A stretch of DNA of 64,000 nt, from positions 1-64,000 of IMG/VR virus record IMGVR_UViG_3300025789_000035; one strand, 5' to 3'. Both the position numbers and the translations under genes were made by a program. This document shows, one piece after another, positions 185 through 47,763 of this stretch. The notes under the pieces were generated by a model, which saw nothing but the letters and a program-made list of their open reading frames with translations, made no database searches and was not told the DNA's origin. The DNA comes from a virus. Numbering within the stretch: position 1 is the first letter of the stretch; every line of letters begins with the position of its first letter.

Positions 185-236
185 AGATTACTCCTATACA
201 TATATAACGCGGTAGTATGTGTTTTAGTTGACAAAA

Positions 237-517: not shown

Positions 518-523
518 ACTATA

Positions 524-13900: not shown

Positions 13901-16900
13901 AATGTCATTGTATATGACATAACTGCTTTCATCATAGATATAGCTTTCACCTGCATAGATTGGCTCTGGTATGTATGCATATGATACTGGATTAGTACCG
14001 GTACTTAAACTAACATAATTGGTATATGTATAGTGTGATGCTTTCAATGGTATCTTCATCGTACTATCAACATATACCTGTACATCTGTGTTGTTTACAG
14101 GTTTAGCATAATATATGTCAAATGCATCATAACTTACACCTGTAACACGTACAGTGCTAATAGGATGATTACCTGTAGCCTCTCCTGTTGTTATGAATAT
14201 TGTAGCATCATTAGCAGGACTTGTTCCTCCTAAATTTGTACCTGCTATTACAATCACACTATTGTCATTGTAAATATTGCCAGAACTTATAACTTTTACT
14301 GTATATTCTTCTCTAAGATTGTATGGATCAAATCTAGGTCTATAAATTTCTAATTTAGCACCACTATTAAGAGTGTCATCATATGTATAGTATTCATTGC
14401 TATTGTAGAAATATATAGGTGAACCTTGAATTTGTGCCGGAGTCATTCCACTAACTGCATAATTAAAACTAACTACAATATCACCATTACCATCAGTTGT
14501 AGAATTAGTAATCGGTAACAATACACCTGTAGCACTAGCTCCTATATTTGCAGTAATAGGAATACCTGCAACTGAGACTGATGTGATTGAACCAGTATTA
14601 ACAGGTGTACCTGCATATGTAAATCCACCTTGTGCGATAGCACCCGAAGCATTTGCCGATGTTACAGTAATTACTAAGTCGTTAGCAGGTGTTGCACCAC
14701 CAAATCGTGTACCTACAAATGTAATTGTATCATTTGCAACATATCCAGTACCATAATGATAACCACTAGTAACAGTATAAGTAGATCCATTACTGGTTAT
14801 AATAAACAATGCACCAGTACCAGAACCACTAGTACTATCTTGATTCATACCCTGACCATTATTATAAATGTTCTTTACCGCTGTTACAGTTATTCTGCAA
14901 TCATTGGCAGTGGTTGCACCATTCAATAAGTTACCGGCAATAGTTATAACATCATTTACATGATACCCGGTACCAGAATGAACAATAACTGCATCGTATG
15001 TTCCACCAAGTAACATGTTATAAATTGTAAATGTGGCGCCTGTGCCACCACTAGGTGATACTGTACCAGAGTCTGGTATTGTATTGATAACTGTGCCATA
15101 GTTTAAACCAAGTGTCTGACTTATATCTGATCCTACTCCTGCATAAGGACTACTGTAAAATAAGCTAGGTTTCCAAGGCACTATTTTTGGTTCGTAACTT
15201 GTTCTATCAAAGCGTAACTTAGGACTTAAACCACGCACAACAGTATTACTTACTTGAGGTACTGCTTGAGCAGTTAATCCAAATGTATATGTCACTAGAT
15301 TAGTAGGTGGAACAAGTTGAACCTTTCCGTTACCTGCTAAACTATCTGAAAATGATTTATGTAATGTAATTTCTACTAACTCTCCACCTACTAATTGAGC
15401 AAGTACATATATGTAATAATATCCATCAGCGACTGTTGTTTGTGTTGAACTGTCACTTGTACTTCTTATTAGATCACCTGTAACCAAATATGTTGTGGGT
15501 AATACAATTGTACTGGCAGCATAATTAATTTGGTCGCTAGTAAAGGAAACATTATAACTGCTACTTATAACAATTTCAGGAACAGTTGGATAGTTCTTTC
15601 CAGGATTTACTACAGTAACTCCTACAACTCTATCACCGGACATAATTGGTTTTAATACTGCAGGTACAATAGGAGCTGGATATATTGTTGTGTCAATAAC
15701 TGCGGTAACTGTAGGTGGGTCAATATAACCTCTTCCGCTATCAAGAACTACGATTGCAGGTAAATCCATTATTACGCTTGCGCCGGCAAAATGTTCTACT
15801 ACCACTGTTTGATTTAAGCCACGTGTTAGTCCTGAAATTGTACCATGTTCTATATCTATTGTATTGTATGCAATAACTTCATTGTCAATTTTCATTATAC
15901 CTTCGATTGGTAATCCTCTAGCATTATTAACATAAAGTATACTATCAGCTGCAGATGCATATGTTTTTAGTAGACATACAATATAATTAGGTGAGTCAAC
16001 TAAACTAAGCCCGTAATTATTAATCCAATCACTATAATTGGTGTTTTGCCATATAGGGTCAGATGCCAAATAATTACCTGTACCTAATTGCTTAACATTA
16101 TAGACTAGGTTAGGACTGGTAAATTTACCACTTGTTTTATTATACAAGGGAGGTAAATCAAAGTCTGTGCTATATGTTTCTGTATTATCTTGAACAGTAT
16201 ATTTGTATTCAATATTTCTAACTACACTATGATAAGGTTTTATTTCATCAACATATCCACTTATCAATATATCATTATCTGGGCGATAGTTAGGTGTCTG
16301 TATCAATGAACGTACTACATAATCAATATCAACAAAACTTGATTTATTAAGCCACGGCAAATAATTATGTCCTGCAATATTTTCACTTTGAATATATTCA
16401 AATATCAATATCAAACTCTTGTTACGATGTTCTAACAACTCATTAACATAAATTTGTTCATTCAATGCACGTATGATGTAGCGTGTTTCAATACTAGGGA
16501 AATATCCAAAGGGAGTAGTGTCAAAGAAACTGTTACCAAATCCAATTAAATTATTTGTGTAATCCCACAACGCACTACTAAATTGTATAGTGCCATCTTG
16601 TAAACCAATACGTGACCAAATATTATTGTTGTATATGTAAATTTCACGTTTACCTTTATTGTTTTGTCTTACACCAACAATCAAACCAGATGTAGGTGTT
16701 AGTTTCAATAAATCACTATATGTACTGACTTCTACTGCTGTCTTTGTATTATTATCATAACCTGTTTGCCACCAGTATACATTATACCAGTAGTTACTTG
16801 TATTATAGTATTCACCAGTTGTATATAAGAATGAAGGGGCACTATAATCATTGATAGGATATTGTATGATTATATTATTAGCGTATGTCAAATAGTTTTT

Positions 16901-19900
16901 CAATGCATTAAAGCGATTGATAAACATACTTTGTCTAGGTCTTACATTGATACCTACTTGCAAATATGCAGGTAGTCTAAAGTTAGGAACGATTTCTCCA
17001 GCCTCATCAGCACCTGCAAAACTATCTAATAATACAGAGTATAGTCCAGTTGGGCTGGTTATACCTAAGTTATTATCAATAAAGCCCGGTAAGAAATCAT
17101 CAGCAAAATTCGCACGAATTAGTTCATATTCTGCATGTGATACACTTTGCCCATTACCAGAACTATATCCAATATGTATATTTGTATTCAATCCATTGAT
17201 ATTATCACGGCTATTATATAATGCAAATGTATTGCTTGTTAATGGTGCAAAGTATGTGATACCACTATTTTGTGGATCACTAATGTAGTTTTCTAATACT
17301 GTATCAGTAAGAGTTTTATCACCGTATAATGTATTTGTATTTCTTACCCAGAAATAGTATGTTGCATTTAGTTGTGATGCACTTGTTGTACTATATGATA
17401 CTGCATATAAGTTGGTATTATATACTGTACCAGGACCTTTATACATTGATGGATCAACTGAACTACTTATCCAAGTATATACACTAACAATACTACCTGG
17501 GAATAAATAACCCCAATAACTACTGTTATATGATAAATCATCTTGGTGATAGTCTAGGTATTTTGAGGTTGATGTATCATACCATAATTTACCTACATGA
17601 TCTTGTCCCCATGTATTTTTACCCGATGCATGTGAAACATCTGAATTATATCCTGCAGGATCGTTGCTTGAAATATAATCAATATTTTCTTTTACTGCAC
17701 CTAATAGTTTACCATTCAATGGGTCAAAATAATCTAGTGAATCTAAATTAGTATTGTCTATATTATTATACAATTGAACTTTGTTGATCTTTGCTACATC
17801 TACAATTTCACATGGACTACGATATGTGTGCCAATTTGTAATACCTTTAGTATTTTCATATATTATCACACTACCATTTTCAGCTGCATAACCATTTACA
17901 CTAGATGTCAAATTTTCTACAACAGTTATAACACTATTATTAGACGGTGCACTATAGAATAATATATGCAATCCACCACTCATATTACTATCTAATCTAA
18001 ATGTATTTGAACTTAAACCAGTAATAGCTACTACACTTCCTGAACCCGGTACAGTTGTGAAAGTTAGATTATTACCTGATGTAATGTAATCAGTATAAGG
18101 TACTTTTTGTGCATTATTAACTGTTACTAACAAATCACTAGGTTGTAGTTGACCAGGTATAGGGAATATTGTTCTTACTCCGTCACCATTATAATACATT
18201 GTATCTGTAATTGCTTTTAGTGGTAGTCCATCTACTTTTACTAACAACTGGAATATAGTAATACCATCAGCTAATGGACCAAAACGTTTTGTTGTGCCAT
18301 CACCCATAAATGTCAATGTTTGTATTTGTGTGTTGGACTTAAAGTTAGGGCTACCAACCATAATAATATTATTACTAAACGCAACACTTAATCCATATTC
18401 TGGTGTAGGACCATAATCAATAATAGTATCGTTAACTGCTTGTCCAAATATAAACTGTCCAGTATTCAATAACGTTTCTTTATAAGGTGTAACATAATCG
18501 TATACATATGCTGCACCTGCGTTAGAGAAACTATCTTCAAATATTGTTAAGTTATTATCAAATACAGTATTGTTATGTGAATTATTTGCATCAATCAGAT
18601 CAAATACTGTATTTAGGTATCTAGTTGCTCTTGGGGCAGTTACAACAAAACTACTTGCTTCATTGAATGCAAGTTTTAATCCAAAACGACTGCTATTCTG
18701 TGGATGCGGTTCACGAATAGTTTGTGTTTTTATATATGAACTAATTCCTAATTCATACAAGAAATTACCATTGAATACTGCTATGTTTAATTTATTGTCA
18801 CCGCTTATTAAGTCCTGGTTAAGCAATCTAATTCTTAATAAATTCTCTCCAGTGGGTGCATCATATACATAAGCTATAATATTAGGAACAGCAAACTCAT
18901 TGATAGCATTTGCAACATCATATGCATCAGCGCTTGCTGGGATCGTAACACGATAGCCATTCAACAATATATAAGTTGCACCTAATTGATTGTTTGCAGC
19001 AATCAGTGCAGTTATTGTACCAAACTTTTTACCTTCATTTGTATAACGGTATACTGCACCTTCTTGGCCCTTAACAGTTACATCATATGGAGTACCAACT
19101 AATAGTTCACTACCTGAAATATTACATGCTAAACTTGAACCAAATTTTTGCCCTTGATGTAATTGTGCCAATGAATCATAACTGGCTATTCTTGCATCTA
19201 ATACAAAGTTTGGGCTACTTAATGTAATGATATCGCCTGCATGTACACGAGGTCCTATCAATAAGAAACAACCTTGTGACAATAAGTTCAATACTACATA
19301 TTGATTTGTCTCTAACATAGCTCCATTAATGTATACTGAACTGCTTGGGTCTGGTACCCAAGGTAATATCAAAGTATAAAAATCAGTACTTGCAACATCA
19401 TACTGAACTTCCCAAGTTTCGCTCAAACGTGTGTATATATAAACATATCCAACATTTGCAATTGCATCATTGAAATTACTTGTGGGGGATCCAATAAACA
19501 ACTTATCCCCATTATAGCTATTAGCAATACTGCTTCCAAAGCTATTAGTAGGTACTTGACCTAATGAATATAAACCTGTTGCAGGGTCTTGTGATATTGC
19601 GTTATTTAAATTACCAACCAATGAAAACTGATTGTTAACCGATCTTACATATGTATTGACTCCAGTGACACTATAACCAATATATTCTACTGTAAAATAT
19701 GTAGTCACATCACTTATAATATCATACTTTGATGTGATTATTGTTACATAATTTGGCAACATGTTTTTATATACATATACTGCATTACTAGTGTCAGATA
19801 ATATGTAAGATGATACATGGCTAGGTCCGTAATCTAATGCAATGAATGTTTCTGCAAACAATGTTGCTTGTAAATTGCTGTTATCAAGATATAATGTTGT

Positions 19901-22900
19901 ATATTCAGAGGATACTGCTGTACCAGATACTATTTCAACTTGTGCTATACTACCCGAGGTACCAATTGCAGTAACTTGTAAAACTAAGTCATTAGTTGTA
20001 TCAACACCGCCTAAACTAGAACCTAATATAGTTAATGTATCATTTACTGCATAACCAGTTCCTAAGTAACCAAGACTTGGTGTTGCATTTAAATATGTTG
20101 CTCCATTTACATCTACATCAAATTTTACTGTACCTGTTCCGCTTGTGCTTACTTTATTTGTAGCAGTTATACCTGTCAACAAAGTACCATAATATGTGTT
20201 ATTTGCAGTCAATGTATAATCCACAATATCAGCAGTAGGGTCAAAACTAATTACTGTACCAACTGGGATAGTACCTGTTAATTTCAAATAATATTTTCTA
20301 TATTGTTGTAAGTAATTATTACTTGAATTTGGGAATCCGGTTGCTTTAAATAATACTGATTGAGAATCAGCAGGATCTGTATTTAAATTATATCCGTTTG
20401 CAACACCAGAAACTATACTTGCACTTGTTATTTGGCCGGTACTACTGACTGTTACTACTTTGATTACTAAATTATTTGTTGTACTTAAGCCATCTAAAAT
20501 AGTATAAGGTATAGTCAATATATCATTAACTGTATAACCTGTACCAGCTGCATGTATAGCAGCAGTATATCGTGTTTGATTTAGAGTTACATCAAATGAC
20601 GCACTAGTGCCACTACCACCTGTCACAACAACTGCAGGTTTAGTATATGCTTGTGGTATATAACCAAATGAATATATTGATGATGTACCAAACTGTGTAT
20701 ATTGATAGAATGTTACTCTAGCACCTGTATGAATATCACCATTAACAGTTTGATCACCCATTACTTTGAAATACTTTTTATCAGGTAATGTTGCTTCAGA
20801 TAAACGCATCAATTCGTACACTGGTGTACCATTGATTGTAATTTCTTGTGTAGATTTAATGTGTTGATATGTATATGAAGGATTGCGTTTATATACTAAT
20901 ACAGTAGGAGGAATCACCCAGGTATCAGACAAACTGTTTGTTCTATATCCATCAATACTTAAAAACAACAACTGCCCGTCACCGGATACAGTCATTGTAT
21001 TACCAACAGGTGTATCCAATGCAAAGCTAAGTATTTGTTCTGGAACCAATGCTTCAATCTCAGGTGATTGAACAATTCTATATATGTAGATGTATGTTAG
21101 TGAACTATCTGGACTAGAAACTAATAAAAACTCATCATTTCTAGCAATGGTTTTACCAAAAGGTGGAGTATGTGAAATTGTATTTCTTAGTATGTATCCG
21201 TTGTCTGTTTTTGCATAGGTATACACATTACCTAATGTACTATCACCAACAACATAACCTACTCCCGGTACATAGTTAACACTATCACCGTATGTTTCAT
21301 TACCACTGATGCTACCTAAGAAATTTTGTTTAGTATAATTTAAACTTTTCTCTAGTACTGCCCAATTGTTATTTTTATCACTATCTACCCATACTAAATT
21401 ATTTGAGTACTCATATGGTAAACTTAGGTTTAACAATCCTATAGGACTAGAAAGTCTAACAGATTCTAAATTGAATACAAACGATGCAGTACCACTAGTT
21501 ACCTGTGTCACATTATTGCTTAATGTTAATGTTATGATGTATGTGGTATTGTTTACTACTACATCTATTGTATAGTAACCATCCACTCTAGTATCAAAAT
21601 TCAATATACCAATCATATCACCAACATTTAGTAAAGGTGATTTAGTAAATGTTATTGTTACTGTTCCATTGAGATTATTAATGACATGTGTTACTCTTAC
21701 ATCTTTGATAGGTATTGCACAATACATACCCCAATCACCATTGGAATCGGCTAGGTATATATAATCATCTCCGTATAAATTATAAATTGTACTATTTGGT
21801 AATTGATTTAAGTTATAACTATAGTATGTTGTGTCATTCAAGTTAGCATAACCTGCACTTGGTAGACCTTTTGTATTTTGAGTTGTCTTGAGTGGCAATA
21901 TATTTGTATTATCTAATAGTCTTCCGTAATTGGTTAGACTATATAGTGGCACTTCTTGTTGACTTGCACTAACTGGTTTATCAACAATGACACTAACGAT
22001 TGCTGGATTACCAGTTAACATTCCACCATCTAGTGTGAATTCAATGAAGTTTTGGTTTAATATACCACCATATTCTGATTTTTGTACTAACCAATTCTCG
22101 TACATACTATAATTGAATTGAATCGCATTCAAATCAATACTTTGTAATATGTTTAGTGCATTTTCAGTACCTTTAAGTGCAATCATTGATTGATATAAAT
22201 TAACTTGACTTGGATCCGTTAGATTAATATCACTTAGATACGATCTGGGTCTATATCCAATCAATGAATATCCTAACAAGTCCGCATCATTTTGTAAATT
22301 ACTAGAATGTGTGTCATAATACAATTGACTTTCACTGGCTCTGGTATTTGGATTAGCAATTAACCCCTTATGTATATTTTGGTACTGGGTTTTAATCCAA
22401 TTACTAGCTGTAAATACGTCACTTGGAATTATCACAGGAATGTTAGCCATGTAGTAACTATTTTTATACAATACTGTATCACCTTTGTAGTATTGCGTAT
22501 TTGGAGTCCAAGGTTCTACATTACTTTGATTGATGATAAAGCCAGGTGCGTACAATGTACCATTCCAATTATTGCTCTTTGTGCCTCTTAGATAAAGTCG
22601 TTGTTGTCTCAATCCAGTAAGTAAGTTAAACACAACATCGTTAAACACAGTTACATTATTGAATACAACTGCATGTTCTACGCTACTCAATGTACTCTTA
22701 AAATAACTTATAGCGTCGGCTTGACTTAATGATTTTACAGTAAACTGTGTATCAATACGTGTGATTGCTAGACTTTCTAATGGAAATTGAACCAAATTTT
22801 GATTCAATACAAAATTATGTGTATAATCGGTAAGAGGTTGAACTACTGTACTTCCAGTATCAATTGTAAGTGTATTTGCATTTGGGTTAACATTAATAGT

Positions 22901-25900
22901 ACTACCAACTTCCCATCCACTGTTATACCAATACAATATTTCAGCAATCATTTGATCCCATGTAATAGCAACATTATTTTCAATGTCATTAAATTGCATA
23001 CCCTGAGATTCTAAATAATTACCATATCCTTTTAAGAATTCACATAATAATTGTACACTAGAGAATTCTGTTCCATATGGAGTAGTAATCACAGTTGTTG
23101 TGTAAGTTATTGGGATATTAACTGTTGTGTTAGCTACTGTGATTGGGTTTACTAGGTTGTTATAGTAAGGTGCATAACTTAAGAAGTATGCTTTGTTTTG
23201 ACTGTTACCAAATACTTTATATCCTGTTAGTGTTTTCTGCACAATAACAGAGCTATAAACAATGATGTCATTAGGTTCGTTTTGGTACAACAATATACTA
23301 TAGCTATCGTCCGGGATCAATAATGAATTGCTAGTACTATTTGGACTACCTTTTTCAATTAAAAATTGTAGTTGATTTTGATCGCTAAATCCAGCCATTC
23401 TATATGCTAATCTAACATCTAGACTTGCCAATGTATTTGCAATAGTTTCACTACTACCAACACCATATTGATTGAGATAATCAACTAACCAATTCAAATA
23501 ACTATGCTTTGCATACTGATCCTGCAGTGATCTGGCTAAGCCTTGACCATTCCCATATACATTAATATTTGTCAATGATGTTCTATAGCGATCATCAGTT
23601 AAAAATTGGTTGAACTCAGTATTGTATCGGTAGCCATCTAAGTCTAAACCTAAACAAAAGAAATCGCTTGGTTTTAGTAATGCGTATATACGCATTAAAT
23701 CGAATGGGTATGAGCTACTTTTTATATAACTATATTCAGCAGGGCCAACATCACCTACACTCCAATTATTTTTGAAATCAGTGATTTTATAACGCTTAAT
23801 CAATCCTTTGATTCTGAATGGACTTAATAGATTTCCATTCTCATCAACTGGAATAATTTTTAGTAATCCATCTCTTACATAGTTTTTATCAATATAACTA
23901 TTACCATTGTTGTAAATGAATCCATTACTTAAATCTGTCCATAACAATAAGTTATCACTTGTATATGGTGCAGCACCATAACGTGTTTGCCACCAACTTG
24001 GTTCTATAACAAAGCCTAACATCTCCCATGGTCTATCATGTGGATTGCAAGTATCATATAGATTTAAGAATATACCTCTCCAATTACCACTGTTGAATGT
24101 TGTATTACTTAAACTACTGATTGCAGTATTATAATTATATGTGTAATCATCAGTACTATCATAGAACTGATTAGTATAATTAATACGATTTAATCCAACC
24201 CAATTTAAAAAGTTGGTAGTATAAATTGACATGTACTCATCATATGAGTAACCTGTATCTCTGAAGAATCCAGGACGAATATCATTTGGCTGAATTGCAA
24301 ATGTAGTGTTTACTTTCATGTTGTTGTAAACACGCAATTCAAATTCATATAATACTTTGTCACGGAAATCTTGTAACAGTCCGTTATTGTATTCACCGTA
24401 CAACTTAGTATAACTTCCATCATGCCCAATGATAAAATATGTAGGTGTTGAATATGTATCATCTAATATAACTGTAGGTACGTACTTTGGATAAAATCCT
24501 AACTTAGTAGGAGTATTAGGTATATAACTACCATATGTTTGGTCATATTCATTAACCGTAATTACATCACCGTCATTTAATGGTACTATAATTTCAAGAT
24601 AATTGTCTACAATAACATAATCAATATCTTTTGCTAATTGTAATTGTACAGGCAATCCGTCTACTGTTCTATTAACATATGCTAATACACCATAATAATT
24701 TGCAACTGTAAAATCATATACTCTAGATAATGGGAATAATGCTTTACTTAAACCAATTCTAAACGCATAGCTATTACTAATGGTTGGATTCTGATTAGGT
24801 ATCATATCACTCCAGAAGAAGCTGTTATCTGGTGATTTTACCCCAACCATGATACTCAATGTATCATCTAGCATATATGCGGCACTATCGTATGGTGTAT
24901 AATTTTGTTGATCTACAGTATAAACCAATGTTGATTTAAATTTTACATATTCATTGCTATTGTATATTAAACCATTAAAGAAGTTTGCACTTTGTTTACG
25001 AATAAAAGCAGCGGCAATAGGTAAACTACTACTATTCTGTATGATTCTTGTTCCATAACCTGTAACATCACCTAAATCTCTATAGTTGTTTGCACCAAAA
25101 CTAGTACCAATTAAATTACCTGCTAAATTGTTACAAATACTTTTGTAATGTCCTCTGATATCACCACTTGTAAGAGTAGTGATGGTTTCATTGAATGGAT
25201 TGTGATCTAAATTAGTTGGTATATCATAGTATCCTATATTACTAGTTTGATCACTATATAACATAATATCAACGTGTGTACCATCACTGATACTTGATGT
25301 TATTGTAATTGAAGTTGTATCATTTGTATTTGTAACTGTATAATTAGTACTATCAACAACTGAATTGTCAACATAGACTACAATAGTGGGCCACATTGTT
25401 GACATACTATCTTTAATCATTACATCAGCAACAAATATAGGACCATTAGGCATTGTTACAGAATTATACACAAAGTTAAAAATTTGATATTGAAAACTAC
25501 GTTCAACCGCAGTATTCCACCCAATTTTTCTTACCAATTGATTGTTTTTATCATATGAGTGTACATAACCAATGTTTACTTGTTCATTATAACTGGTATT
25601 GTTTATAACATAATTGAATGTATTTGCATTCAATGAAGTTTGAAATACAATGTCATTTAAATTACCTACTCCGCTATAGCTAATAGGTAAGTTCAGTACT
25701 GGATCTAATGGATTTGATCCCAATAGATACTCAAATAATGTGCAACCTTTGAAATCACTACCAGGATAGTATTCTTGATCACTTAAACTGTTACCATTTT
25801 TATCAAACAAATCAAACAAAGGTGATTGATTTACTGTTTGTTTTTCTTGGCAATTTAACCACTGGTTACCATCAAAGTAAAAACTATAGCCTGCATTTGA

Positions 25901-27856
25901 TTCACCTCTAGATACATGTACATTGTCTAAGTATTCGATATTACCATCGAATGCAACACTCAATGTTATGATTTGTTTGTTGTTGATAGTTGCTACATGG
26001 CAAGTATATATTTTATTTCTAACATTGATATCGTTGTCTGCAGCAAAAACAACTCTAGCACCATCAAATAGTGCACTTGTTGGGCCATCAGGATAATATA
26101 CATTTAATGATCCACCTGCTATAGTAGACAATGCATTTGGAGTAATATTGTCAAAATAATCGATTGTATCTTTACCATTGATTCCATGATCAAATAATCT
26201 TAGATTAGGATAGAATTCAATGATAGGACGTTTTGCACGATTTGTGGTACTGGCTAGTGCAGCGCTTGCAATAGGACTAATATTATTGTTGTTAGCAATT
26301 GTTTTTAATACATCAACATGAAACCAACAATTGCTACGACTCCATGCATTTTTGTCACGTGAGTTACGATTGATTGTTATATAGTCTTGAACGTTAGGCA
26401 AGTCTTTACTATTATCAAATGGTGTTGTACCAAAATATGCCTCATCAAAAGGTTGATCAATATACTGACCAAACGGTTCTGTTACAATTTGCTGACTACT
26501 AGGTATTAAATTAATGCTAGTGCCTACTCCTTCAACATAATAACTATCATTCAAATAATTTTCTGGATATACTGACCCAGTAAAAGTAACTCTTAATCCA
26601 TTACTAAATGTAATACCATTTGGGCTTACATAATTTGTGCTACCTAATATATCATTTACATTTAATACACTACTAAAAACATCATCAACCAATTTAATGA
26701 TACCGTATTTTTTATCATTGGTGCCATCGACATAATACAATGTGTTTAGATTTGATGTGATTTGTGGCAATAGTATAATTTCACCAACTGCATTTTTAAC
26801 AAAACTTTTACCAATAAACTGTTTACCTGAATTAGCATCAATGCGAATTTCTGTTGGTATTGATGTATAAGCAGTCAATTGAATTAAAAACTGTAAAGGA
26901 TCACTTGTTGGTACATAATTAATTCTATATAGATTTTGATTGAGAATACTACCATCTACTGAACTAGTAGCGTTTGGATCTTGACCATAGAACATCAATA
27001 GTTTATTCTCTAAATCTGTTACACCATCAATAGCAAATACATACTGTCCATTGACTTGATTAAAATCTAATGTAGTAACTACATCTATAGTTATGCCCAC
27101 TGGATAGCGATATCCATCTTCTGCATCTGCCATTGGTACTGTAAATGTCATCACAGAATTTGGCACGCCGTTATTGGTGACTCCGTATATTTCTCTTGTG
27201 CTTACATTTGTTTTTGTAGGATCTACACCACTGATGCCAGGCATAGTTTGAATATAAAAGGGTGTATCTTGATTAACTAGAAAAGTATAAGTACCACCGC
27301 GGACTAGTGTTATTTCTGGATTTCCAACAATAGGTGTTGCACCATTGATTGAAAAATCATATGTATTAGGATTGTTGATAATAGTATATGTGCTATCTAG
27401 TAACAACTTTTCTGTTGTTATGTTTACACTTTCAGGACCTGTTGGGATCCAATAGTATTGTCCATAATTAATAATTTTATCTAAATCAACAAAACTATCC
27501 CAACTATAAAATTGATTATTAAAAAGTTTGTTATCACTGACATTAATTCCACTCTCAGTTCTAAGTGCATCAATGATGCCAGGATAGGTAATTAAATCTA
27601 TTGCCTGACTGGTACCAGTTTTTTGAAATACAACACTGGGTTCTAATTGATAATTGTTTCTAACACTATCTGGTTCTACGAGATATGTGTCTGTGCTTTT
27701 TACTCCGTAACCAAACTTACTACCAATAAAACCTTGCACTTTTTTAAAGTCAGGCTGTTGGACAAGTTGATCCAATGTTGCATTTAAAAATAATTGGTTG
27801 GTACGTGTTTGAAAAATTTCTGGTAAGAAATCAATCGTTCTAGTTCTTGTTACCAT
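10973..27856 (-). CDS. 5627-aa giant virion structural protein (baseplate-proximal)
   Basis: One uninterrupted ORF of 16.9 kb. The N-terminus (about residues 1-150) starts with RTIDFLPEIFQTRTN and GSKFGYGV, recalling large structural proteins beside gp6 in aquatic T4-like phages. A cupredoxin/YHYH-like element (LVRGGTYTFLVNQDTPFYI) is near residues 185-205. FG-GAP-like propeller blades occur near residues 2240, 2800, 2930 and 3170 (for example VGYVYIYTR, GAVYRYTNEG). At least five copies of a GTGY-x-VNDTITI-GG-x-NDL-VT module occur near 2440, 2600, 4300, 4370 and 4535. BNR/sialidase-like blades (STDGVTWT, SSDGLTF) are at about 4780-5060. A repeated GEKIRF/NEVIAY ... GLVRGV loop also appears near the C-terminus. 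The position between gp6 and the fibres suggests a baseplate-attached appendage or fibre connector. Exact role unknown. Confidence 0.75.
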   Translation of the reverse strand: MVTRTRTIDFLPEIFQTRTNQLFLNATLDQLVQQPDFKKVQGFIGSKFGYGVKSTDTYLVEPDSVRNNYQLEPSVVFQKTGTSQAIDLITYPGIIDALRTESGINVSDNKLFNNQFYSWDSFVDLDKIINYGQYYWIPTGPESVNITTEKLLLDSTYTIINNPNTYDFSINGATPIVGNPEITLVRGGTYTFLVNQDTPFYIQTMPGISGVDPTKTNVSTREIYGVTNNGVPNSVMTFTVPMADAEDGYRYPVGITIDVVTTLDFNQVNGQYVFAIDGVTDLENKLLMFYGQDPNATSSVDGSILNQNLYRINYVPTSDPLQFLIQLTAYTSIPTEIRIDANSGKQFIGKSFVKNAVGEIILLPQITSNLNTLYYVDGTNDKKYGIIKLVDDVFSSVLNVNDILGSTNYVSPNGITFSNGLRVTFTGSVYPENYLNDSYYVEGVGTSINLIPSSQQIVTEPFGQYIDQPFDEAYFGTTPFDNSKDLPNVQDYITINRNSRDKNAWSRSNCWFHVDVLKTIANNNNISPIASAALASTTNRAKRPIIEFYPNLRLFDHGINGKDTIDYFDNITPNALSTIAGGSLNVYYPDGPTSALFDGARVVFAADNDINVRNKIYTCHVATINNKQIITLSVAFDGNIEYLDNVHVSRGESNAGYSFYFDGNQWLNCQEKQTVNQSPLFDLFDKNGNSLSDQEYYPGSDFKGCTLFEYLLGSNPLDPVLNLPISYSGVGNLNDIVFQTSLNANTFNYVINNTSYNEQVNIGYVHSYDKNNQLVRKIGWNTAVERSFQYQIFNFVYNSVTMPNGPIFVADVMIKDSMSTMWPTIVVYVDNSVVDSTNYTVTNTNDTTSITITSSISDGTHVDIMLYSDQTSNIGYYDIPTNLDHNPFNETITTLTSGDIRGHYKSICNNLAGNLIGTSFGANNYRDLGDVTGYGTRIIQNSSSLPIAAAFIRKQSANFFNGLIYNSNEYVKFKSTLVYTVDQQNYTPYDSAAYMLDDTLSIMVGVKSPDNSFFWSDMIPNQNPTISNSYAFRIGLSKALFPLSRVYDFTVANYYGVLAYVNRTVDGLPVQLQLAKDIDYVIVDNYLEIIVPLNDGDVITVNEYDQTYGSYIPNTPTKLGFYPKYVPTVILDDTYSTPTYFIIGHDGSYTKLYGEYNNGLLQDFRDKVLYEFELRVYNNMKVNTTFAIQPNDIRPGFFRDTGYSYDEYMSIYTTNFLNWVGLNRINYTNQFYDSTDDYTYNYNTAISSLSNTTFNSGNWRGIFLNLYDTCNPHDRPWEMLGFVIEPSWWQTRYGAAPYTSDNLLLWTDLSNGFIYNNGNSYIDKNYVRDGLLKIIPVDENGNLLSPFRIKGLIKRYKITDFKNNWSVGDVGPAEYSYIKSSSYPFDLMRIYALLKPSDFFCLGLDLDGYRYNTEFNQFLTDDRYRTSLTNINVYGNGQGLARSLQDQYAKHSYLNWLVDYLNQYGVGSSETIANTLASLDVRLAYRMAGFSDQNQLQFLIEKGSPNSTSNSLLIPDDSYSILLYQNEPNDIIVYSSVIVQKTLTGYKVFGNSQNKAYFLSYAPYYNNLVNPITVANTTVNIPITYTTTVITTPYGTEFSSVQLLCEFLKGYGNYLESQGMQFNDIENNVAITWDQMIAEILYWYNSGWEVGSTINVNPNANTLTIDTGSTVVQPLTDYTHNFVLNQNLVQFPLESLAITRIDTQFTVKSLSQADAISYFKSTLSSVEHAVVFNNVTVFNDVVFNLLTGLRQQRLYLRGTKSNNWNGTLYAPGFIINQSNVEPWTPNTQYYKGDTVLYKNSYYMANIPVIIPSDVFTASNWIKTQYQNIHKGLIANPNTRASESQLYYDTHSSNLQNDADLLGYSLIGYRPRSYLSDINLTDPSQVNLYQSMIALKGTENALNILQSIDLNAIQFNYSMYENWLVQKSEYGGILNQNFIEFTLDGGMLTGNPAIVSVIVDKPVSASQQEVPLYSLTNYGRLLDNTNILPLKTTQNTKGLPSAGYANLNDTTYYSYNLNQLPNSTIYNLYGDDYIYLADSNGDWGMYCAIPIKDVRVTHVINNLNGTVTITFTKSPLLNVGDMIGILNFDTRVDGYYTIDVVVNNTTYIITLTLSNNVTQVTSGTASFVFNLESVRLSSPIGLLNLSLPYEYSNNLVWVDSDKNNNWAVLEKSLNYTKQNFLGSISGNETYGDSVNYVPGVGYVVGDSTLGNVYTYAKTDNGYILRNTISHTPPFGKTIARNDEFLLVSSPDSSLTYIYIYRIVQSPEIEALVPEQILSFALDTPVGNTMTVSGDGQLLFLSIDGYRTNSLSDTWVIPPTVLVYKRNPSYTYQHIKSTQEITINGTPVYELMRLSEATLPDKKYFKVMGDQTVNGDIHTGARVTFYQYTQFGTSSIYSFGYIPQAYTKPAVVVTGGSGTSASFDVTLNQTRYTAAIHAAGTGYTVNDILTIPYTILDGLSTTNNLVIKVVTVSSTGQITSASIVSGVANGYNLNTDPADSQSVLFKATGFPNSSNNYLQQYRKYYLKLTGTIPVGTVISFDPTADIVDYTLTANNTYYGTLLTGITATNKVSTSGTGTVKFDVDVNGATYLNATPSLGYLGTGYAVNDTLTILGSSLGGVDTTNDLVLQVTAIGTSGSIAQVEIVSGTAVSSEYTTLYLDNSNLQATLFAETFIALDYGPSHVSSYILSDTSNAVYVYKNMLPNYVTIITSKYDIISDVTTYFTVEYIGYSVTGVNTYVRSVNNQFSLVGNLNNAISQDPATGLYSLGQVPTNSFGSSIANSYNGDKLFIGSPTSNFNDAIANVGYVYIYTRLSETWEVQYDVASTDFYTLILPWVPDPSSSVYINGAMLETNQYVVLNLLSQGCFLLIGPRVHAGDIITLSSPNFVLDARIASYDSLAQLHQGQKFGSSLACNISGSELLVGTPYDVTVKGQEGAVYRYTNEGKKFGTITALIAANNQLGATYILLNGYRVTIPASADAYDVANAINEFAVPNIIAYVYDAPTGENLLRIRLLNQDLISGDNKLNIAVFNGNFLYELGISSYIKTQTIREPHPQNSSRFGLKLAFNEASSFVVTAPRATRYLNTVFDLIDANNSHNNTVFDNNLTIFEDSFSNAGAAYVYDYVTPYKETLLNTGQFIFGQAVNDTIIDYGPTPEYGLSVAFSNNIIMVGSPNFKSNTQIQTLTFMGDGTTKRFGPLADGITIFQLLVKVDGLPLKAITDTMYYNGDGVRTIFPIPGQLQPSDLLVTVNNAQKVPYTDYITSGNNLTFTTVPGSGSVVAITGLSSNTFRLDSNMSGGLHILFYSAPSNNSVITVVENLTSSVNGYAAENGSVIIYENTKGITNWHTYRSPCEIVDVAKINKVQLYNNIDNTNLDSLDYFDPLNGKLLGAVKENIDYISSNDPAGYNSDVSHASGKNTWGQDHVGKLWYDTSTSKYLDYHQDDLSYNSSYWGYLFPGSIVSVYTWISSSVDPSMYKGPGTVYNTNLYAVSYSTTSASQLNATYYFWVRNTNTLYGDKTLTDTVLENYISDPQNSGITYFAPLTSNTFALYNSRDNINGLNTNIHIGYSSGNGQSVSHAEYELIRANFADDFLPGFIDNNLGITSPTGLYSVLLDSFAGADEAGEIVPNFRLPAYLQVGINVRPRQSMFINRFNALKNYLTYANNIIIQYPINDYSAPSFLYTTGEYYNTSNYWYNVYWWQTGYDNNTKTAVEVSTYSDLLKLTPTSGLIVGVRQNNKGKREIYIYNNNIWSRIGLQDGTIQFSSALWDYTNNLIGFGNSFFDTTPFGYFPSIETRYIIRALNEQIYVNELLEHRNKSLILIFEYIQSENIAGHNYLPWLNKSSFVDIDYVVRSLIQTPNYRPDNDILISGYVDEIKPYHSVVRNIEYKYTVQDNTETYSTDFDLPPLYNKTSGKFTSPNLVYNVKQLGTGNYLASDPIWQNTNYSDWINNYGLSLVDSPNYIVCLLKTYASAADSILYVNNARGLPIEGIMKIDNEVIAYNTIDIEHGTISGLTRGLNQTVVVEHFAGASVIMDLPAIVVLDSGRGYIDPPTVTAVIDTTIYPAPIVPAVLKPIMSGDRVVGVTVVNPGKNYPTVPEIVISSSYNVSFTSDQINYAASTIVLPTTYLVTGDLIRSTSDSSTQTTVADGYYYIYVLAQLVGGELVEITLHKSFSDSLAGNGKVQLVPPTNLVTYTFGLTAQAVPQVSNTVVRGLSPKLRFDRTSYEPKIVPWKPSLFYSSPYAGVGSDISQTLGLNYGTVINTIPDSGTVSPSGGTGATFTIYNMLLGGTYDAVIVHSGTGYHVNDVITIAGNLLNGATTANDCRITVTAVKNIYNNGQGMNQDSTSGSGTGALFIITSNGSTYTVTSGYHYGTGYVANDTITFVGTRFGGATPANDLVITVTSANASGAIAQGGFTYAGTPVNTGSITSVSVAGIPITANIGASATGVLLPITNSTTDGNGDIVVSFNYAVSGMTPAQIQGSPIYFYNSNEYYTYDDTLNSGAKLEIYRPRFDPYNLREEYTVKVISSGNIYNDNSVIVIAGTNLGGTSPANDATIFITTGEATGNHPISTVRVTGVSYDAFDIYYAKPVNNTDVQVYVDSTMKIPLKASHYTYTNYVSLSTGTNPVSYAYIPEPIYAGESYIYDESSYVIYNDIAYRCIQSNNDSTFIASKWVKVNQDDVNLNALDRIATYYSPTSNMLPKDIKQLIAGVSYPDNVYYGNSFSPEDSYPIDVVVAGQEFYPTNVNIISLIYDGTHYIGLSENSQHSSVLSSTDGIHYNNNTVSTQPLSVTSITYYDPYQQYLVTTGVAENPIMLSYDLENWVTVGATVNKFGVSHFDETPFDVNQISCPPGVLNSITVAQGYYYAAGETILSSPDGTTWTTVSPSDNSTRMLYCIKNIVTSHFDGFVAVGGETIVTSDAGTSAPATTNASTIIYSTDGVTWTVLTPYITTNTLYTICSSPTTIVVAGDNGCVYTTLNGTTWSTPTITPTVTTKLNSSTYALGKFVIVGDNGTILTSSDGLTFDKVIVNVNYNFNSITFDGTYLYIGADGGNIYRSNNPSTTWLDVSVIGQPSNQIDPLEKLPYVTVKGNDFLFGYGPEELVPGVMTDIVSIRVITTPGSHWDDNDLILQNVGGSYIGYTNFNKAHQLVTVTAQKFSFSNLVVNPAQLSVFLFDSTDGTGTGTRLYQTIDYTINWITKVVTLVNSVDSMKSIVVEVYEIGNGNQYARGTSDNIPLQTNSLTGLSEIHIQHAYIPQDNNPVCYHNGNKLVYETDYFVTYSGGEYNYTIISFANTYDQSIDFISFALLDTSKNHLNLYEIGYSIPETQVFSYTSSSVFNLSSNITVNTPNATNAIVEKNGLRLASSDYTIDTTANTLTISASLSAGDHVAITTFNETKRLFLNTKTSTSLSGSSVTLTMDQPVDSGTYPDVTPYYYTNALVYINGKIISPDLYSFQTGTNTITITPKTSVSSGDVVTVLAMVTGATPNSNTFTIDIDKNSNMSIYRDNDVDGTWLVQDLLLTDDTIYVNDVSRIVDITTTDTNIVQINGEKIRFLLLDPINNALVGLVRGVLGSAVSETHSKYDIVYGRNNKVKLDPMYYTETWESKNINSKGDPLQLSTGSVPNFLNYGHY

Positions 27857-42971: not shown

Positions 42972-43550
42972 ATGTCTTCAAAAAGTAAAACAAAAGGTAG
43001 CTCGTATGAAAGGGAAATTGCAAAATTTCTTAGTGAAACGTACGGCGAGCCTTTTGTTCGTGTTCCTAATTCAGGTGCATATATCGGAGGATCCAATTCT
43101 CACCGAAAAAACTTTTTAGACGGAAATCAAGCTAAGTCCTTTAAGGGAGATATAATAGCCCCTGATTCTTGGATTAAATTTAATTGCGAGTGCAAGTCAT
43201 ATGCAGACTTCCCTTTTCACTTGCTATTATCAGGCGAATGTAAGATAATAGACAGTTGGATAGAACAATTACTTGATGTAGAAGATGATGGCGATTTGAA
43301 CATGCTTATAATGAAGTTCAATCGTATTGGACGTTACATTGCAGTACAACCCAAACTAACATGGACTATAGACAATCTTTTTTTCTATGTTAGTAAAAAA
43401 CATGGTGATTGGGTAATCACTGAATTTGATAGTTTCTTCAAATTAAACAAAGAACTCGTTAGAGCATACGCAGGCTCCACAGACACAAAGTCAAAACCAC
43501 TTAGCCAAACAGACACAAAGTCCAATAACATTTTAACTCTAACAGTTTGA
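42972..43550 (+). CDS. PD-(D/E)XK nuclease (Holliday-junction-resolvase-like)
   Basis: 192 residues. An N-terminal helix KGSSYEREIAKFLSE (Glu15) is followed by RVPNSGAY, then FKGDIIAPDS (Asp60) and NCECKSY (Glu73-x-Lys75). Together these form the active site of the restriction-endonuclease-like fold. The arrangement resembles archaeal Hjc-type and phage recombination nucleases. Beside gp46/gp47 it likely processes recombination intermediates, although a DNA-degradation or anti-host role is possible. The 90-base gap upstream of ATG 42972 has no clear promoter and no well-spaced ribosome site. Confidence 0.7.
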   Translation: MSSKSKTKGSSYEREIAKFLSETYGEPFVRVPNSGAYIGGSNSHRKNFLDGNQAKSFKGDIIAPDSWIKFNCECKSYADFPFHLLLSGECKIIDSWIEQLLDVEDDGDLNMLIMKFNRIGRYIAVQPKLTWTIDNLFFYVSKKHGDWVITEFDSFFKLNKELVRAYAGSTDTKSKPLSQTDTKSNNILTLTV

Positions 43551-43554
43551 CAAT

Positions 43555-44040
43555 TCGTTAGCTAAGTTTGTTAGCTCTCCTTGAGATTGTACAGATCGTG
43601 CTGTGCCGTCAGATTCTGGAGTCAGCGTAGTCACATACTTGTGACTATGAAACACCGAGAAGGCAATCGTCAAAGCGAACCTTCAATGAGTTTATATCTA
43701 TTCTATCTTGATGATATAAAACATGCGTTGCTGAATGAAATCCTAACTGAACGGACGTATATTCAACTACAATCCCATAAAGAACCTTACAGAGCAACCG
43801 GTGGCACGTGATAGCAATAATAGCTGATCATGTGGGGAACAGATGGCAAGGATGACGGTCGTGCAAGATCAAAACTTTTGGTAGTGCTGAAACAGCACTA
43901 CCATGGAGTCAAATCGGCAAGTATTCCTAAAAGAAATAAAGTACAAAAAAGAATAGATGTGAATAAAAACAATACCGAACGATAGACTGAGCGAAGCGAA
44001 GTATGAGTGAAGGTATTAGATTACCGAAGGTAATCTTTAA
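43555..44040 (+). ncRNA. Candidate large structured non-coding RNA
   Basis: About 540 bases between two convergent genes lack a credible ORF but contain many exact inverted repeats. TAGTCACA/TGTGACTA (43628-43647) has a 4-base loop. GAAGG/CCTTC spans 43659-43684. TTTATATC/GATATAAA spans 43691-43720. An 11-bp hairpin with one bulge lies at 43805-43834. GGTAGTGCTG/CAGCACTACC (43880-43902) has an AAA loop. AATACC/GGTATT (43971-44017) encloses a purine-rich GCGAAGCGAAG segment. AGATTACC/GGTAATCT (44018-44036) has a GAA loop and ends in TTT. GCCGTCA (43605-43611) can pair with TGACGGT (43853-43859) to close a multibranch domain. Base composition is less AT-rich than neighbouring genes. The strand is assumed plus because it follows the nuclease gene. 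Large phage RNAs such as GOLLD are a possible class, but I cannot confirm membership. Confidence 0.55.
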
Positions 44041-44092
44041 AGATAACCCTAAGTTATGATAAATGAATAACTATGGATAAAATAAAAATATT

Positions 44093-45144
44093 TTAGAAGA
44101 ATGGTAGTCCGGACTTCTTAGTAGTGTCTAAGTTATCATCAATCAATTTGTTTATGGCTTTTCTCTCAGATATGCTCATGTTGAGTATGTCAGTATATGA
44201 TACACTACCTCTCATATACCAAGCCATTTTCATTGCTCCAGTCTTGATATCATCACATTCTTTTTCGTATTGTGCGATAAGGCCCTTGATTCCCTCGGAG
44301 TCTAAAGAATGGAGCCTTATTCGAAAAAAGTTGATGGGTTAATAGCAAATGATTGTTTATATTGGTGTTGGCAACTAGTACAAGTAATGTCCAGTGGTTT
44401 ATTTTCAGATAGTTCTCTGATTTTTACAGAAAAGTCTTTTACAGTTTCAAATGTATTCTTATCACAGTTATCTAAAAATTCTTTAATATACTCTTTTTCA
44501 AACACAGTACTATTTGGTGTTTGTATGTATTCAATGGTTTTGGTTATAACACTGGAAGCGATCCCATTGATCTTTAGTAACAATTCTTGTGTTTTTTGAT
44601 TTTTTAATTCTTGATCTTCTGTTTGTTGCACTATACTAATCAACTTTTGAACTTCAAATTGTATTAAATTCGTTTCATTGATTTCTCTGTATTGTAAAGG
44701 TCTAAACTTAAAGTTTAAATCTCCAATGGTCAACGGTGTGCTATAGTCACCTGCTTGAAAATCATTCAGTACTGCGGTTAAATTAAGATCAAATTTTGCA
44801 CCTTCGCTGCAACTTGGGCAACTAGTATCTATCTCCATAAAGGTACCGTTTGTAGCAATACGTATTGCAACTAATATTGGATCTAAATCAGTTAATGGTA
44901 TACTCCATGGATCTTTGATATTGGGTGCACAGCTTTTAATAAGTTCTACTACAGCCATACCATTGTATAAACTGTCAGGAGTTCTAGTAGTTATCTCATC
45001 GATAGCAGTCATGGGATATATAGGAATCTCTAAATTTTCAGGAAGATCGATTGCACCCTCAGGGTATCCCTGACCCTGACTGGGTAATTTCAAATAAATT
45101 GATGGTCTACGAAAATATTGTTGTAGTGGGTTTGATGATTCCAT
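44093..45144 (-). CDS. gp26-like / downstream ORF fusion made by -1 frameshifting (350 aa predicted)
   Basis: At T TTT TTC (44329-44323) the ribosome can slip back one base. It then avoids the TAA two codons later and reads 76 further codons (RIRLHSLDSE ... TTKKSGLPFF) to TAA at 44095-44093. The predicted product is residues 1-274 of the gp26-like protein plus 76 residues. The extension, with MKMAWYMRG, SISERKAINKL and a terminal LPFF, resembles a short conserved protein next to gp26 in T4-like aquatic phages. An alternative is separate initiation at an internal ATG preceded by GGAG (about 44240-44228), giving a protein of about 48 residues. Frameshifted fusion pairs are the rule for tail assembly chaperones of many long-tailed phages. 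Confidence 0.65.
44277..44329 (-). promoter_or_regulatory. -1 programmed frameshift element: slippery heptamer plus stem-loop
   Basis: Slippery heptamer T TTT TTC in the correct zero-frame phase (ACT TTT TTC GAA TAA). It is followed after two bases by a 9-bp stem ATAAGGCTC/GGGCCTTAT (44320-44312 with 44285-44277, one G-U pair) enclosing a 26-base loop. Pairs near the base are A-T and may melt, giving an effective spacer of about 5-6 bases. Placement, phase, downstream stop and open -1 frame all agree. Confidence 0.75.
44317..45144 (-). CDS. 26: Baseplate hub / tail assembly protein gp26-like
   Basis: 275 residues. It starts MESSNPLQQYFRRPSIYLKLPSQG and has an alpha/beta N-terminal half with PIYPMTAIDEI and a CPSC pair (Cys109, Cys112). 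After a helical middle a second pair CTSC (Cys255, Cys258) occurs; the four cysteines probably bind zinc. This matches gp26-type proteins of T4-like aquatic phages. gp26 is needed for hub/tape-measure assembly and has been suggested to act as a tail assembly chaperone. It is the only leftward gene in this part and lies divergent from the tape-measure-like gene. The zero-frame stop is two codons after a frameshift site. Confidence 0.75.
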   Translation of the reverse strand: MESSNPLQQYFRRPSIYLKLPSQGQGYPEGAIDLPENLEIPIYPMTAIDEITTRTPDSLYNGMAVVELIKSCAPNIKDPWSIPLTDLDPILVAIRIATNGTFMEIDTSCPSCSEGAKFDLNLTAVLNDFQAGDYSTPLTIGDLNFKFRPLQYREINETNLIQFEVQKLISIVQQTEDQELKNQKTQELLLKINGIASSVITKTIEYIQTPNSTVFEKEYIKEFLDNCDKNTFETVKDFSVKIRELSENKPLDITCTSCQHQYKQSFAINPSTFFE

Positions 45145-45172: not shown

Positions 45173-45207
45173 CTATGTACCGTAATCGTATTTATAAGGA
45201 TAAAATT

Positions 45208-47763
45208 GTGGCAGATAATAATGAAGATGTGTCCCGTGAATTCAATGAATTTGTTAAAAGACTAGTTGAAGGTAATCAGGATGCAGCCAATGACCTAGAA
45301 AAAGCTTTTAAAGTTATTGGTAAACACGCCGGCTCTTTTGGTAAAGAACTCAATGATCTAGATCGGGCTGCCGAAGGTGTAACTGAGGCATCCAAAAAAG
45401 AAGAGAAATCAAAGTCAAATCTTACTCTTGCAACTGAACAACTAGTCGCATTGACCAAACGTTTTGGATCTGCGATGGTCAGTTCTGAACAGGGTGTTGG
45501 TAAATATGGCGGTGCAGTTGAAGGTGTTACGGACACAATTGCATCAATGACATCAAAATTAGGACTTTTAGGTGTTGTTGCCGGTGAACTCATTAAAGTA
45601 TTTGGTGGTCTTGTTGCCTTAGGATTGAAGAACAATGATGAGTACTTAAAAACTTATAACACACTAAGTGATGTTGGTGTTAGATTTACTAATATAGTTG
45701 ATGAGTTTGGTAATTATTCCAACTTGATGCAAGAACTTAAGATTGATACAGGCTCATCATCAGAAAATTTAGCGTTTTTTGCTAATACACTTAGGGGAAT
45801 TGCGCCTGATTTAGGTGCATTTGGTGGTAGCATTACAGCAGGTGGAAAAAACTTTGAACAGGTAGTAAAACATTTATTAACAGATAAAGATAATTTTTTT
45901 GATTTCAAAGCACTGGGCGTAACTGAACAAGAAATTATAAAATTTGCCGGACTAAGTATCGCAAACCAAACTAAATTTGGTAAATTAGAATCTAATAATA
46001 TAGCAGATGTAACTGCAAAAACAAAAGAATATATTGAACAATTAACTGAACTAAGTCAGTTAACTGGTCAGAGCAAAGATGTTGCACAACAAAAAATACA
46101 AGAACAACAAGCAAGTTTAGATTTTCAAATATATCTACAAAAACTCAGAGAGTCAGGACCAAATGGTCCTGCATTAGCACAACAAGCAAGTAACGCAATG
46201 TTGTTGATGCAAGAACAAGTTGGTACAACAATGAGTGCTGCAGCTATGTCATTGATTGCAAACGGCGGTAGGGCAACTACTGAATTAGCAGCAAATTATC
46301 AAAGACTATTGTTACCTACCATTGTTGGATTTCAAAACGTTGTACGTGGCGGTGGTAACGCATTCTTAGGTATGGCTGATGTACTAAAAAAGCAAACACT
46401 ACCGGCGTTGGCTGCAAATAATAGAGCAAATAGAGAAACTGCATTAGCAAGTAATGAAGCCGGAGCTGCACTAGGTACTACATTACAGACAATGGAAGCA
46501 GAAAATAAATTAAGAAATATGAGTAGTGTATTAGTGGCAAAAGCTAATTTAGAAGAAGCTAAAAGAAAAGGTGATCCAAAAGTAATAAAAGCTGCTCAGG
46601 CAGAATATGATAGTATGATAGCGAGGCAAAAACTAGACAAACTTGCAGATAGCACATTTGAAACATCAATGGATATTATCAAAAAATTTACTGATATGTT
46701 GGATAATGCTTCATACGGCCTTGCTAAATTTGTTAAATTTATAACTTTTGGTAAAATAGATTTTACAGATTTATGGAGAACAATTGAGTCAACAAAAGAT
46801 GCTAATACAGTAATAGATGAAGAAGCACAAACAAAAAAAGAATTAGAAAAAGAAAAAAACGAATTACAAGAAAAATATAATAAAGCAGTAAAAGAGAAAA
46901 TAGATAGTCTAGAAAAACTAAAAGCGAATGGTTACGGTCCTGGTATCAGGGCATACGATGAGGATGTAAAGACATTCAATCAAAAAATAAATGAGATACG
47001 AGCAGATCAAAGAGATAATGAATTAGCACTCTATAAAAGTAAACAATTGGTAGAGAAGGCTAATAAATATTTAGCTTTGGAAAAAAAAGAAGATGAGAAT
47101 AAACAATCAACTGATACTACACCGGCGCCAAACCAAACAAACAATTTACCTGAAAATAAACCAACAGAGCAAAAACCTAATCAAACAGGATTAGTAGATG
47201 GTTTAACAATTAATGAATTTGCAAAAAAATACAATATACCAATTGGGACATATGGTGGATTTAGAACTCATGAGCAACAAGAACAATTGTATAAAAATAG
47301 AGGAAATAATCCTAATCCAGTAGCTGAACCAGGTGCAAGCAAACATGAAACAGGTCAAGCAATAGACGTACCAACTGAGTATCTATATAAACATCCTGAA
47401 ATTCGTAAATTATTACAAGAAAAAGGATTTACACAACCCTTTCCTAAAAAAGATCCTGTGCATTGGGAGTTAACTAACCCACCTATGACATCGGCTGATA
47501 ATACAAATGATAATAAATCTGCACCAACTGTTCCCGTAGTAAACCAAAAAGTTGACAATCAAGCAGTAGCAAGCTTGGTTCAAAAAATAGTAGAAGATGC
47601 AACAGCTAAAGCTAATAAAGTAGATGAATCTACAAAACCAATACAAAATCAAATCAGAGACGGTGTTAACTTAGGTGATCTTTTAAATGAATTGCAAGTT
47701 ATAGCATCAGAAATAAGTACACTTATTGATGTCAGTAATAAAATAGCCACCCATGTGGGATAA
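45208..47763 (+). CDS. Tape-measure-like tail protein with C-terminal M15 peptidase domain
   Basis: 851 residues from GTG 45208. AAGGA is 7 bases upstream, whereas the ATG at 45175 is only two bases after a late promoter box and would not be on the transcript. The N-terminal 60 residues are charged helical. A hydrophobic segment (LGLLGVVAGELIKVFGGLVALGL) at about residues 126-148 and long helical stretches (about 150-460, 540-640) fit a tape measure / hub-channel protein. Residues 670-765 form a VanY/M15 D,D-carboxypeptidase-like zinc peptidase: YGGFRTHEQQ, SKHETGQAID (His713, Asp720) and HWEL (His752). The role is probably tail-length ruler plus peptidoglycan opening on injection. T4 gp29 has no such peptidase. 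Confidence 0.7.
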   Translation: MADNNEDVSREFNEFVKRLVEGNQDAANDLEKAFKVIGKHAGSFGKELNDLDRAAEGVTEASKKEEKSKSNLTLATEQLVALTKRFGSAMVSSEQGVGKYGGAVEGVTDTIASMTSKLGLLGVVAGELIKVFGGLVALGLKNNDEYLKTYNTLSDVGVRFTNIVDEFGNYSNLMQELKIDTGSSSENLAFFANTLRGIAPDLGAFGGSITAGGKNFEQVVKHLLTDKDNFFDFKALGVTEQEIIKFAGLSIANQTKFGKLESNNIADVTAKTKEYIEQLTELSQLTGQSKDVAQQKIQEQQASLDFQIYLQKLRESGPNGPALAQQASNAMLLMQEQVGTTMSAAAMSLIANGGRATTELAANYQRLLLPTIVGFQNVVRGGGNAFLGMADVLKKQTLPALAANNRANRETALASNEAGAALGTTLQTMEAENKLRNMSSVLVAKANLEEAKRKGDPKVIKAAQAEYDSMIARQKLDKLADSTFETSMDIIKKFTDMLDNASYGLAKFVKFITFGKIDFTDLWRTIESTKDANTVIDEEAQTKKELEKEKNELQEKYNKAVKEKIDSLEKLKANGYGPGIRAYDEDVKTFNQKINEIRADQRDNELALYKSKQLVEKANKYLALEKKEDENKQSTDTTPAPNQTNNLPENKPTEQKPNQTGLVDGLTINEFAKKYNIPIGTYGGFRTHEQQEQLYKNRGNNPNPVAEPGASKHETGQAIDVPTEYLYKHPEIRKLLQEKGFTQPFPKKDPVHWELTNPPMTSADNTNDNKSAPTVPVVNQKVDNQAVASLVQKIVEDATAKANKVDESTKPIQNQIRDGVNLGDLLNELQVIASEISTLIDVSNKIATHVG

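Follow-up and report, generated by a model that had tools for sequence, protein, structure and literature searches.

The window analysed here (the whole stretch of 64,000 nucleotides (nt), positions 1–64,000 of IMG/VR record IMGVR_UViG_3300025789_000035, to which all coordinates refer) encodes on its minus strand a gp26-like protein of a giant T4-related phage, and the 3′ end of this gene carries a sequence at which ribosomes may shift into the −1 frame. The gene matches PF12322 above the cut-off of 24.5 (63 bits; 62.6 bits when scored on the window's own record) and phrog_150, ‘baseplate hub’ (E = 2.8e-17), and it ends, on the minus strand, in CCA TCA ACT TTT TTC GAA TAA. The features at the site are as follows:

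44317..45144, minus strand: gp26-like gene, short form, 275 residues (PF12322 / phrog_150)
44323..44329, minus strand: slippery heptamer T TTT TTC, in phase for a −1 slip (from the sequence)
44317..44319, minus strand: zero-frame stop codon TAA, one sense codon past the heptamer (from the sequence)
44093..44323, minus strand: −1-frame open reading frame of 76 codons plus stop (44095–44093), C-terminal extension of the predicted long form
44276..44322, minus strand: hairpin directly 3′ of the heptamer, putative stimulator (from the fold and nine aligned sequences)

In the −1 frame from 44323, the extension reads RIRLHSLDSEG...TTKKSGLPFF, and a fusion at the heptamer would be 350 residues long (274 + 76), compared with 275 for the short form. 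The original prediction, made from the letters alone, had named T TTT TTC in this phase near the end of the gp26-like gene, a zero-frame stop shortly past it, and a −1 frame of 76 codons ending in LPFF that would yield a 350-residue product; the sequence and its translation confirm each of these, with the TAA at 44319–44317 and a single sense codon between it and the heptamer.

The heptamer by itself is ordinary and at chance level, with 84 canonical in-phase heptamers in the 27 open reading frames of the window (19,314 codons). The site is not a chance occurrence because the heptamer is conserved across loci together with an open −1 frame. Two sets of loci were scored. A tblastn search returned 62 phage records, mostly of giant-phage size, 17 of which were combined with 14 of 15 IMG/VR loci into a giant-phage set of 31 (L032, a partial match, was left unscored; L018 is identical to the window); a cyanophage gp26 query returned 80 IMG/VR loci, 79 of which were scored after L098, which is cut off, had been dropped. 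The sets contain near copies (L023 and L024, L026–L030 and several cyanophage loci), and the counts are of loci rather than of independent events. All 31 giant-phage loci carried an in-phase heptamer with six consecutive T (T6) and an open −1 frame (TTTTTTC in 29, TTTTTTT in 2), with 1 to 11 sense codons between the heptamer and the zero-frame stop, and with the −1 frame ending 176–230 nt beyond the start of that stop. The site was likewise present at 79 of 79 cyanophage-type loci, all with a −1 frame that stays open beyond 90 nt (75 TTTTTTC, 2 TTTTTTG and 2 TTTTTTA; in L082 and L101 the contig ends before the −1 frame does). Eleven further phage records had the heptamer in 8 cases and an open −1 frame in 7 of those 8 (S-CAM8, Bakedbeans, Mosig, Cr30, PhiW-14, K571 and IC12); when Bakedbeans gp26 was used as a query against viral_contigs, no relatives were found. 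Alignment of related loci, which the original prediction had proposed as a check on the heptamer, its phase and the stem, thus finds the first two kept throughout both sets and the stem kept within the window's own clade.

Selection on the extension was assessed from the ratio of non-synonymous to synonymous polymorphism (pN/pS) over nine aligned sequences, namely the window and eight relatives. Across the extension this ratio was 0.33 in the −1 frame versus 1.22 and 1.65 in the other frames, and across the first 16 codons past the slip region it was 0.50 versus 1.00 and 1.29, a pattern which indicates that the −1 frame evolves as protein. A single broken frame, taken alone, is also what a sequencing error or a decaying gene would leave behind, and the record of the phage S-SCSM1 may carry such an error. 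For the window, error or decay is in effect refuted because the arrangement is conserved, recurring in 110 loci, 17 of them from named phage records and many from metagenome contigs, and pN/pS lies below 1 in both gene end and extension (0.50 and 0.33); we give this explanation almost no credence.

A second alternative is that the locus holds two genes, with re-initiation giving the small downstream protein a start of its own and the poly-T run reflecting a codon preference for Phe-Phe pairs. A separate small gene is indeed annotated at many loci, in some of them at a stop–start overlap; an ATG lies 9–12 nt past the heptamer start in L001, L002, L007, L019 and L021 (in L019 and L021 at 9 nt, overlapping the zero-frame stop); and in 9 of the 32 rows of our start-codon table (the window plus the 31 giant-phage loci) a −1-frame start is found ahead of the heptamer or no more than 40 nt from it. 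However, the remaining 23 rows have no such start in either position, the first ATG, GTG or TTG in the −1 frame of the window comes 96 nt from the heptamer start, and the −1 frame of Pseudomonas phage PA5oct contains none at all. Moreover, the first 16 codons bear the mark of −1-frame selection in an alignment in which seven of the nine sequences lack any −1-frame ATG, GTG or TTG before 60 nt. Codon preference would also have to accommodate a T6 run in phase at 110 of 110 loci, yet just 4 of the 28 Phe-Phe pairs in the window's open reading frames are spelled T TTT TTY. Relatives with two genes, each with its own start and no heptamer, had been named in the original prediction as the finding to set against it: the two-gene annotation does exist at many loci, yet the heptamer is present there, and an independent start close to it is missing from most rows. 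We consider a separately started second gene improbable, and slipping the simplest route to the extension because at many loci conservation of the protein sets in ahead of the first usual start codon.

Directly downstream of the heptamer, the window folds into a hairpin of −15.6 kcal/mol (a stability matched by 4 of 200 dinucleotide shuffles), the centroid of which consists of a 9-bp stem, as had been predicted, and a 7-bp inner stem. In the nine aligned sequences, 87.0% of cells are paired and covariation is 0.271 versus 0.178 in shuffled alignments (0 of 500 shuffles reach either value), and six cells are changed on both sides (reached by 2 of 500 shuffles). Two measures are unremarkable: 41 of 500 shuffles do as well for the number of pairs changed on both sides, and 448 of 500 for further pair types. 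Sliding the hairpin by +1 gives an equal number of both-side changes but only 63.9% pairing and a score of 0.231. The register differs slightly in the window and L019, and in the consensus fold the heptamer itself is paired with A-rich sequence further downstream; these pairs were excluded from the hairpin count. Other clades have different folds, some of them barely folding, and the hairpin is conserved in the window's clade. Covariation among such related sequences lends the hairpin support rather than proof, and the hairpin may stimulate slipping.

RNA polymerase slippage on runs of T is known in bacteria, and since a T run is present, the two frames could in principle be joined by the polymerase rather than by the ribosome. 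However, the run comprises only six T, mostly closed by a C, and both its phase and the downstream hairpin of the window's clade fit tandem tRNA slippage; we regard polymerase slippage as very improbable.

Further evidence comes from T4, the proteins gp26 and gp51 of which both belong to PF12322. Over 29 records (one labelled partial), T4 has two copies of this family and 27 others have one each; Salicola phage SCTP-2 gave no Pfam PF12322 match, though tblastn finds the gene. The T4 pair consists of a short and a long member (gp26, 208 residues; gp51, 249 residues), with gp26 stopping about where the short forms stop and gp51 running on. No heptamer was found in the short open −1 stretch at the end of either T4 gene, and the in-phase heptamers elsewhere within genes 26 and 51 are TTTAAAC, TTTAAAG and TTTTTTG. 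In hhalign, the −1 extension of the cyanophages matches the C-terminal end of gp51 (E = 4.9e-8, probability 94.8%), and a profile built from fused cyanophage long forms (298 positions) aligns with residues 15–244 of the 249 of gp51, up to profile position 280, and with residues 4–207 of gp26, up to position 237. The proposed link of the gp26-like protein and its downstream partner to the lambda G/GT pair gains support by way of the T4 proteins gp26 and gp51.

Together, the sequence of the site, its conservation and phase, selection on the −1 frame and the pattern of gene copies make it very probable that the window's gene encodes a short and a long tail assembly chaperone by −1 frameshifting, the strategy of lambda G/GT. 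We infer that slipping occurs and that it is the rarer outcome: most ribosomes would halt at the TAA and release the 275-residue short form, and a minority, perhaps aided by the hairpin, would move back by one base at T TTT TTC, with the tRNAs of TTT and TTC re-pairing on TTT TTT, and read the −1 frame into a 350-residue long form with its C-terminal extension. The role as chaperones is suggested by T4 gp26/gp51 and by lambda. If the pair acts as lambda gpG/gpGT does, the tape measure protein would be coated by many copies of the short form and few of the long one, the extension would recruit tail tube subunits, and both chaperones would then leave.

The original prediction also placed a tape-measure-like gene next door, and this part was not borne out as stated:

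45175..47763, plus strand: divergent neighbour, 862 residues, candidate tape measure protein (VanY-type peptidase domain)

This gene is divergent from the gp26-like gene, and its only recognisable domain is a C-terminal VanY-type / D-Ala-D-Ala carboxypeptidase. Of the 17 giant-phage records, 13 have an annotated large neighbour that is likewise divergent. In S-SCSM1 a large gene follows the gp26 gene on the same strand, in Cr30 an annotated tape measure gene lies beyond one small gene on the same strand, and one Acinetobacter phage record names gp26 a ‘tape measure protein assembly chaperone’.

Besides the near starts in nine rows, several observations weigh against a frameshifted chaperone pair. 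The 862-residue neighbour is at most a candidate tape measure protein; Cygsa01, Mutine and Kuja lack the T6 heptamer and have an open −1 frame; and S-SCSM1 has the heptamer and a −1 frame that closes at once. Several giant phages have only a weak hairpin (for example, −2.5 kcal/mol in L008 and −3.2 kcal/mol in L014), and for six relatives folded individually 0 to 29 of 200 shuffles fold equally well. The giant-phage/window extension matches the cyanophage extension (hhalign E = 0.005, probability 7%) and the gp51 C-terminus (E = 0.006, probability 6%) at scores that 1 of 100 shuffled profiles also reaches in each case, and the giant-phage long-form profile reaches no more than 1.5 bits with T4 gp51 and 8.4 bits with gp26. 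Homology of the giant-phage extension with the gp51 C-terminus is accordingly suggested weakly, and mainly by its position.

In the three records without T6 (L037, L131 and L133), the gp26 genes have at the same place the shorter runs ATTTTC, ATTTTC and CCTTTTTC, respectively, and these runs with an open −1 frame possibly reflect a weaker slip or re-initiation. In L035 (Synechococcus phage S-SCSM1), around 2478–2500, the heptamer is kept, the −1 frame is shut 8 nt on and it is the third frame that carries the extension; the break may be a one-base sequencing error or a real loss.

How T4 came to differ is suggested by the end of its gene 26, where the Phe-Phe pair is kept at the site and written TTC TTT, the codon before it having G as its last base. 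The same spelling, preceded by G or A, was found in 7 of 8 T4-type gene 26 ends (L045 has TTT ATT); these 8 were recovered from 11 loci by a script that sought a G-x-x-acidic-type pattern with two residues out of F, I and L after it, and the ends not recovered (L040, L043 and L044) may differ. In a tree of 30 proteins, T4 gp26 and gp51 group together (90/70) and adjoin Vibrio phage K571 (94/94), which has one copy with the slip site; both forks fall short of the 95/80 that the program sets as its mark, rooting is by midpoint and branches are long, and with these limits the tree points to a duplication inside slipping lineages. We think it fairly likely that the T TTT TTC frameshift is ancestral across the entire T4 superfamily, including the giant phages, and that the T4 line duplicated the gene, joined the extension in frame to one copy (gp51) and silenced the site in the other (gp26), leaving TTC TTT as a fossil.

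Structure models were obtained for the window gp26 (predicted local distance difference test, pLDDT, 84) and for the gp51-type form (pLDDT 82), the latter with predicted C-terminal helices at 208–223 and 236–250. A PDB structure search with both models gave no match at E = 0.001 or better, and no PDB sequence relative appeared at a convincing E-value. VIA-align 2 returned one row with Z = 8.9 over 55 residues and others at Z ≤ 7.2, mostly at model residues 131–227; we regard these rows as common helix pairing.

Beside the frameshift gene, about 360 nt without a convincing gene (43560–43918, plus strand) are predicted to form a large structured RNA, with a further hairpin near 44018–44036. The 542-bp gap around it has DNA-level matches to 12 loci besides the window's copies (65–98% identity, near copies included). 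In eight aligned sequences 97.1% of cells are paired and 33 of the 78 pairs are changed on both sides, and covariation is 0.398 versus 0.161 when shuffled, with 0 of 500 shuffles reaching the alignment on any of five measures and slid versions collapsing, for a structure predicted on the same alignment that was used for scoring. An Rfam search of 43500–44400 up to E = 1 gave a single chance-level match, elsewhere on the other strand, and blastn found no match to the stretch in 50,697 phage records, nor in the 11 phage records searched. The RNA is possibly a new family, and it may be more novel than the frameshift itself. Elsewhere, the window carries a tmRNA gene of the permuted betaproteobacterial type (208–560, minus strand; Rfam beta_tmRNA 124.7 bits, tmRNA_permuted 121.1 bits), reported by ARAGORN as tmRNA* with the tag ANDSVFQLAA, and an open reading frame of 5,627 residues (10973–27856, minus strand).

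The genes studied by Vladimirov, Gautam and Davidson in 2022 (Virology 566:9–15) are, we presume, gp26 and gp51. Two later papers cite that study: according to the PRFect paper (PMC10885494), it reports that certain T4-like phages possess both a short gene and a long fused one, and the paper on phage Adele (PMC12846349) refers to it for slip sequences of the poly-T kind in chaperone genes of T4-like phages. Such genes and their slip sequences are thus already in print, and the window is a further case of a known kind. Among the titles and abstract openings in the literature searched, no report of a frameshift in gp26 of giant phages or cyanophages was found. What is added here is breadth (giant phages, cyanophages and others), the want of a usual start codon at many loci, the contrast in copy number and the TTC TTT remnant, parts of which the 2022 study may already include. 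In excerpt, a 2016 review describes the G/GT frameshift as conserved in long-tailed phages except T4 (PMC5009743), and a review of the T4 tail tables gp26 and gp51 as hub assembly chaperones, with its text citing support for gp26 as a hub part (PMC3004832). If our reading is right, the G/GT exception would be confined to T4's own line, and the gp26/gp51 puzzle in T4 hub assembly would become a question of duplicated frameshift products. In public databases the extension frequently appears as a hypothetical gene of its own or under the name ‘baseplate hub assembly catalyst’.

The heptamer of lambda is G GGA AAG, whereas that of the window is T TTT TTC, and the likeness to G/GT proposed here is one of strategy; the lambda gene also lies directly upstream of the tape measure gene, whereas the window's gene is divergent from its large neighbour. 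What the two share is a C-terminal extension in the −1 frame, as lambda gpG/gpGT is described in the excerpted review (PMC5009743). The TAC-N/TAC-NC genes of Vandenendeviridae and Andersonviridae, including phage Adele, likewise have a −1 frameshift at a poly-T run at the end of a chaperone gene (PMC12846349, in excerpt), although the motif is GTTTTT; the likeness drawn here is that of the frameshift. T4 gp26 and gp51 are a shorter and a longer member of the same Pfam family, PF12322, but each is encoded by a gene of its own, and these genes are divergent and end without a slip site. In gp26 and the downstream open reading frame of cyanophages and Pelagibacter phages, the T TTT TTC site, its phase and the −1 extension are the same as in the window, although their extension is clearly gp51-like (E = 4.9e-8) and that of the window weakly so; S-SCSM1 has tail tube, gp26, small open reading frame and large lysozyme protein in this order, all on one strand.
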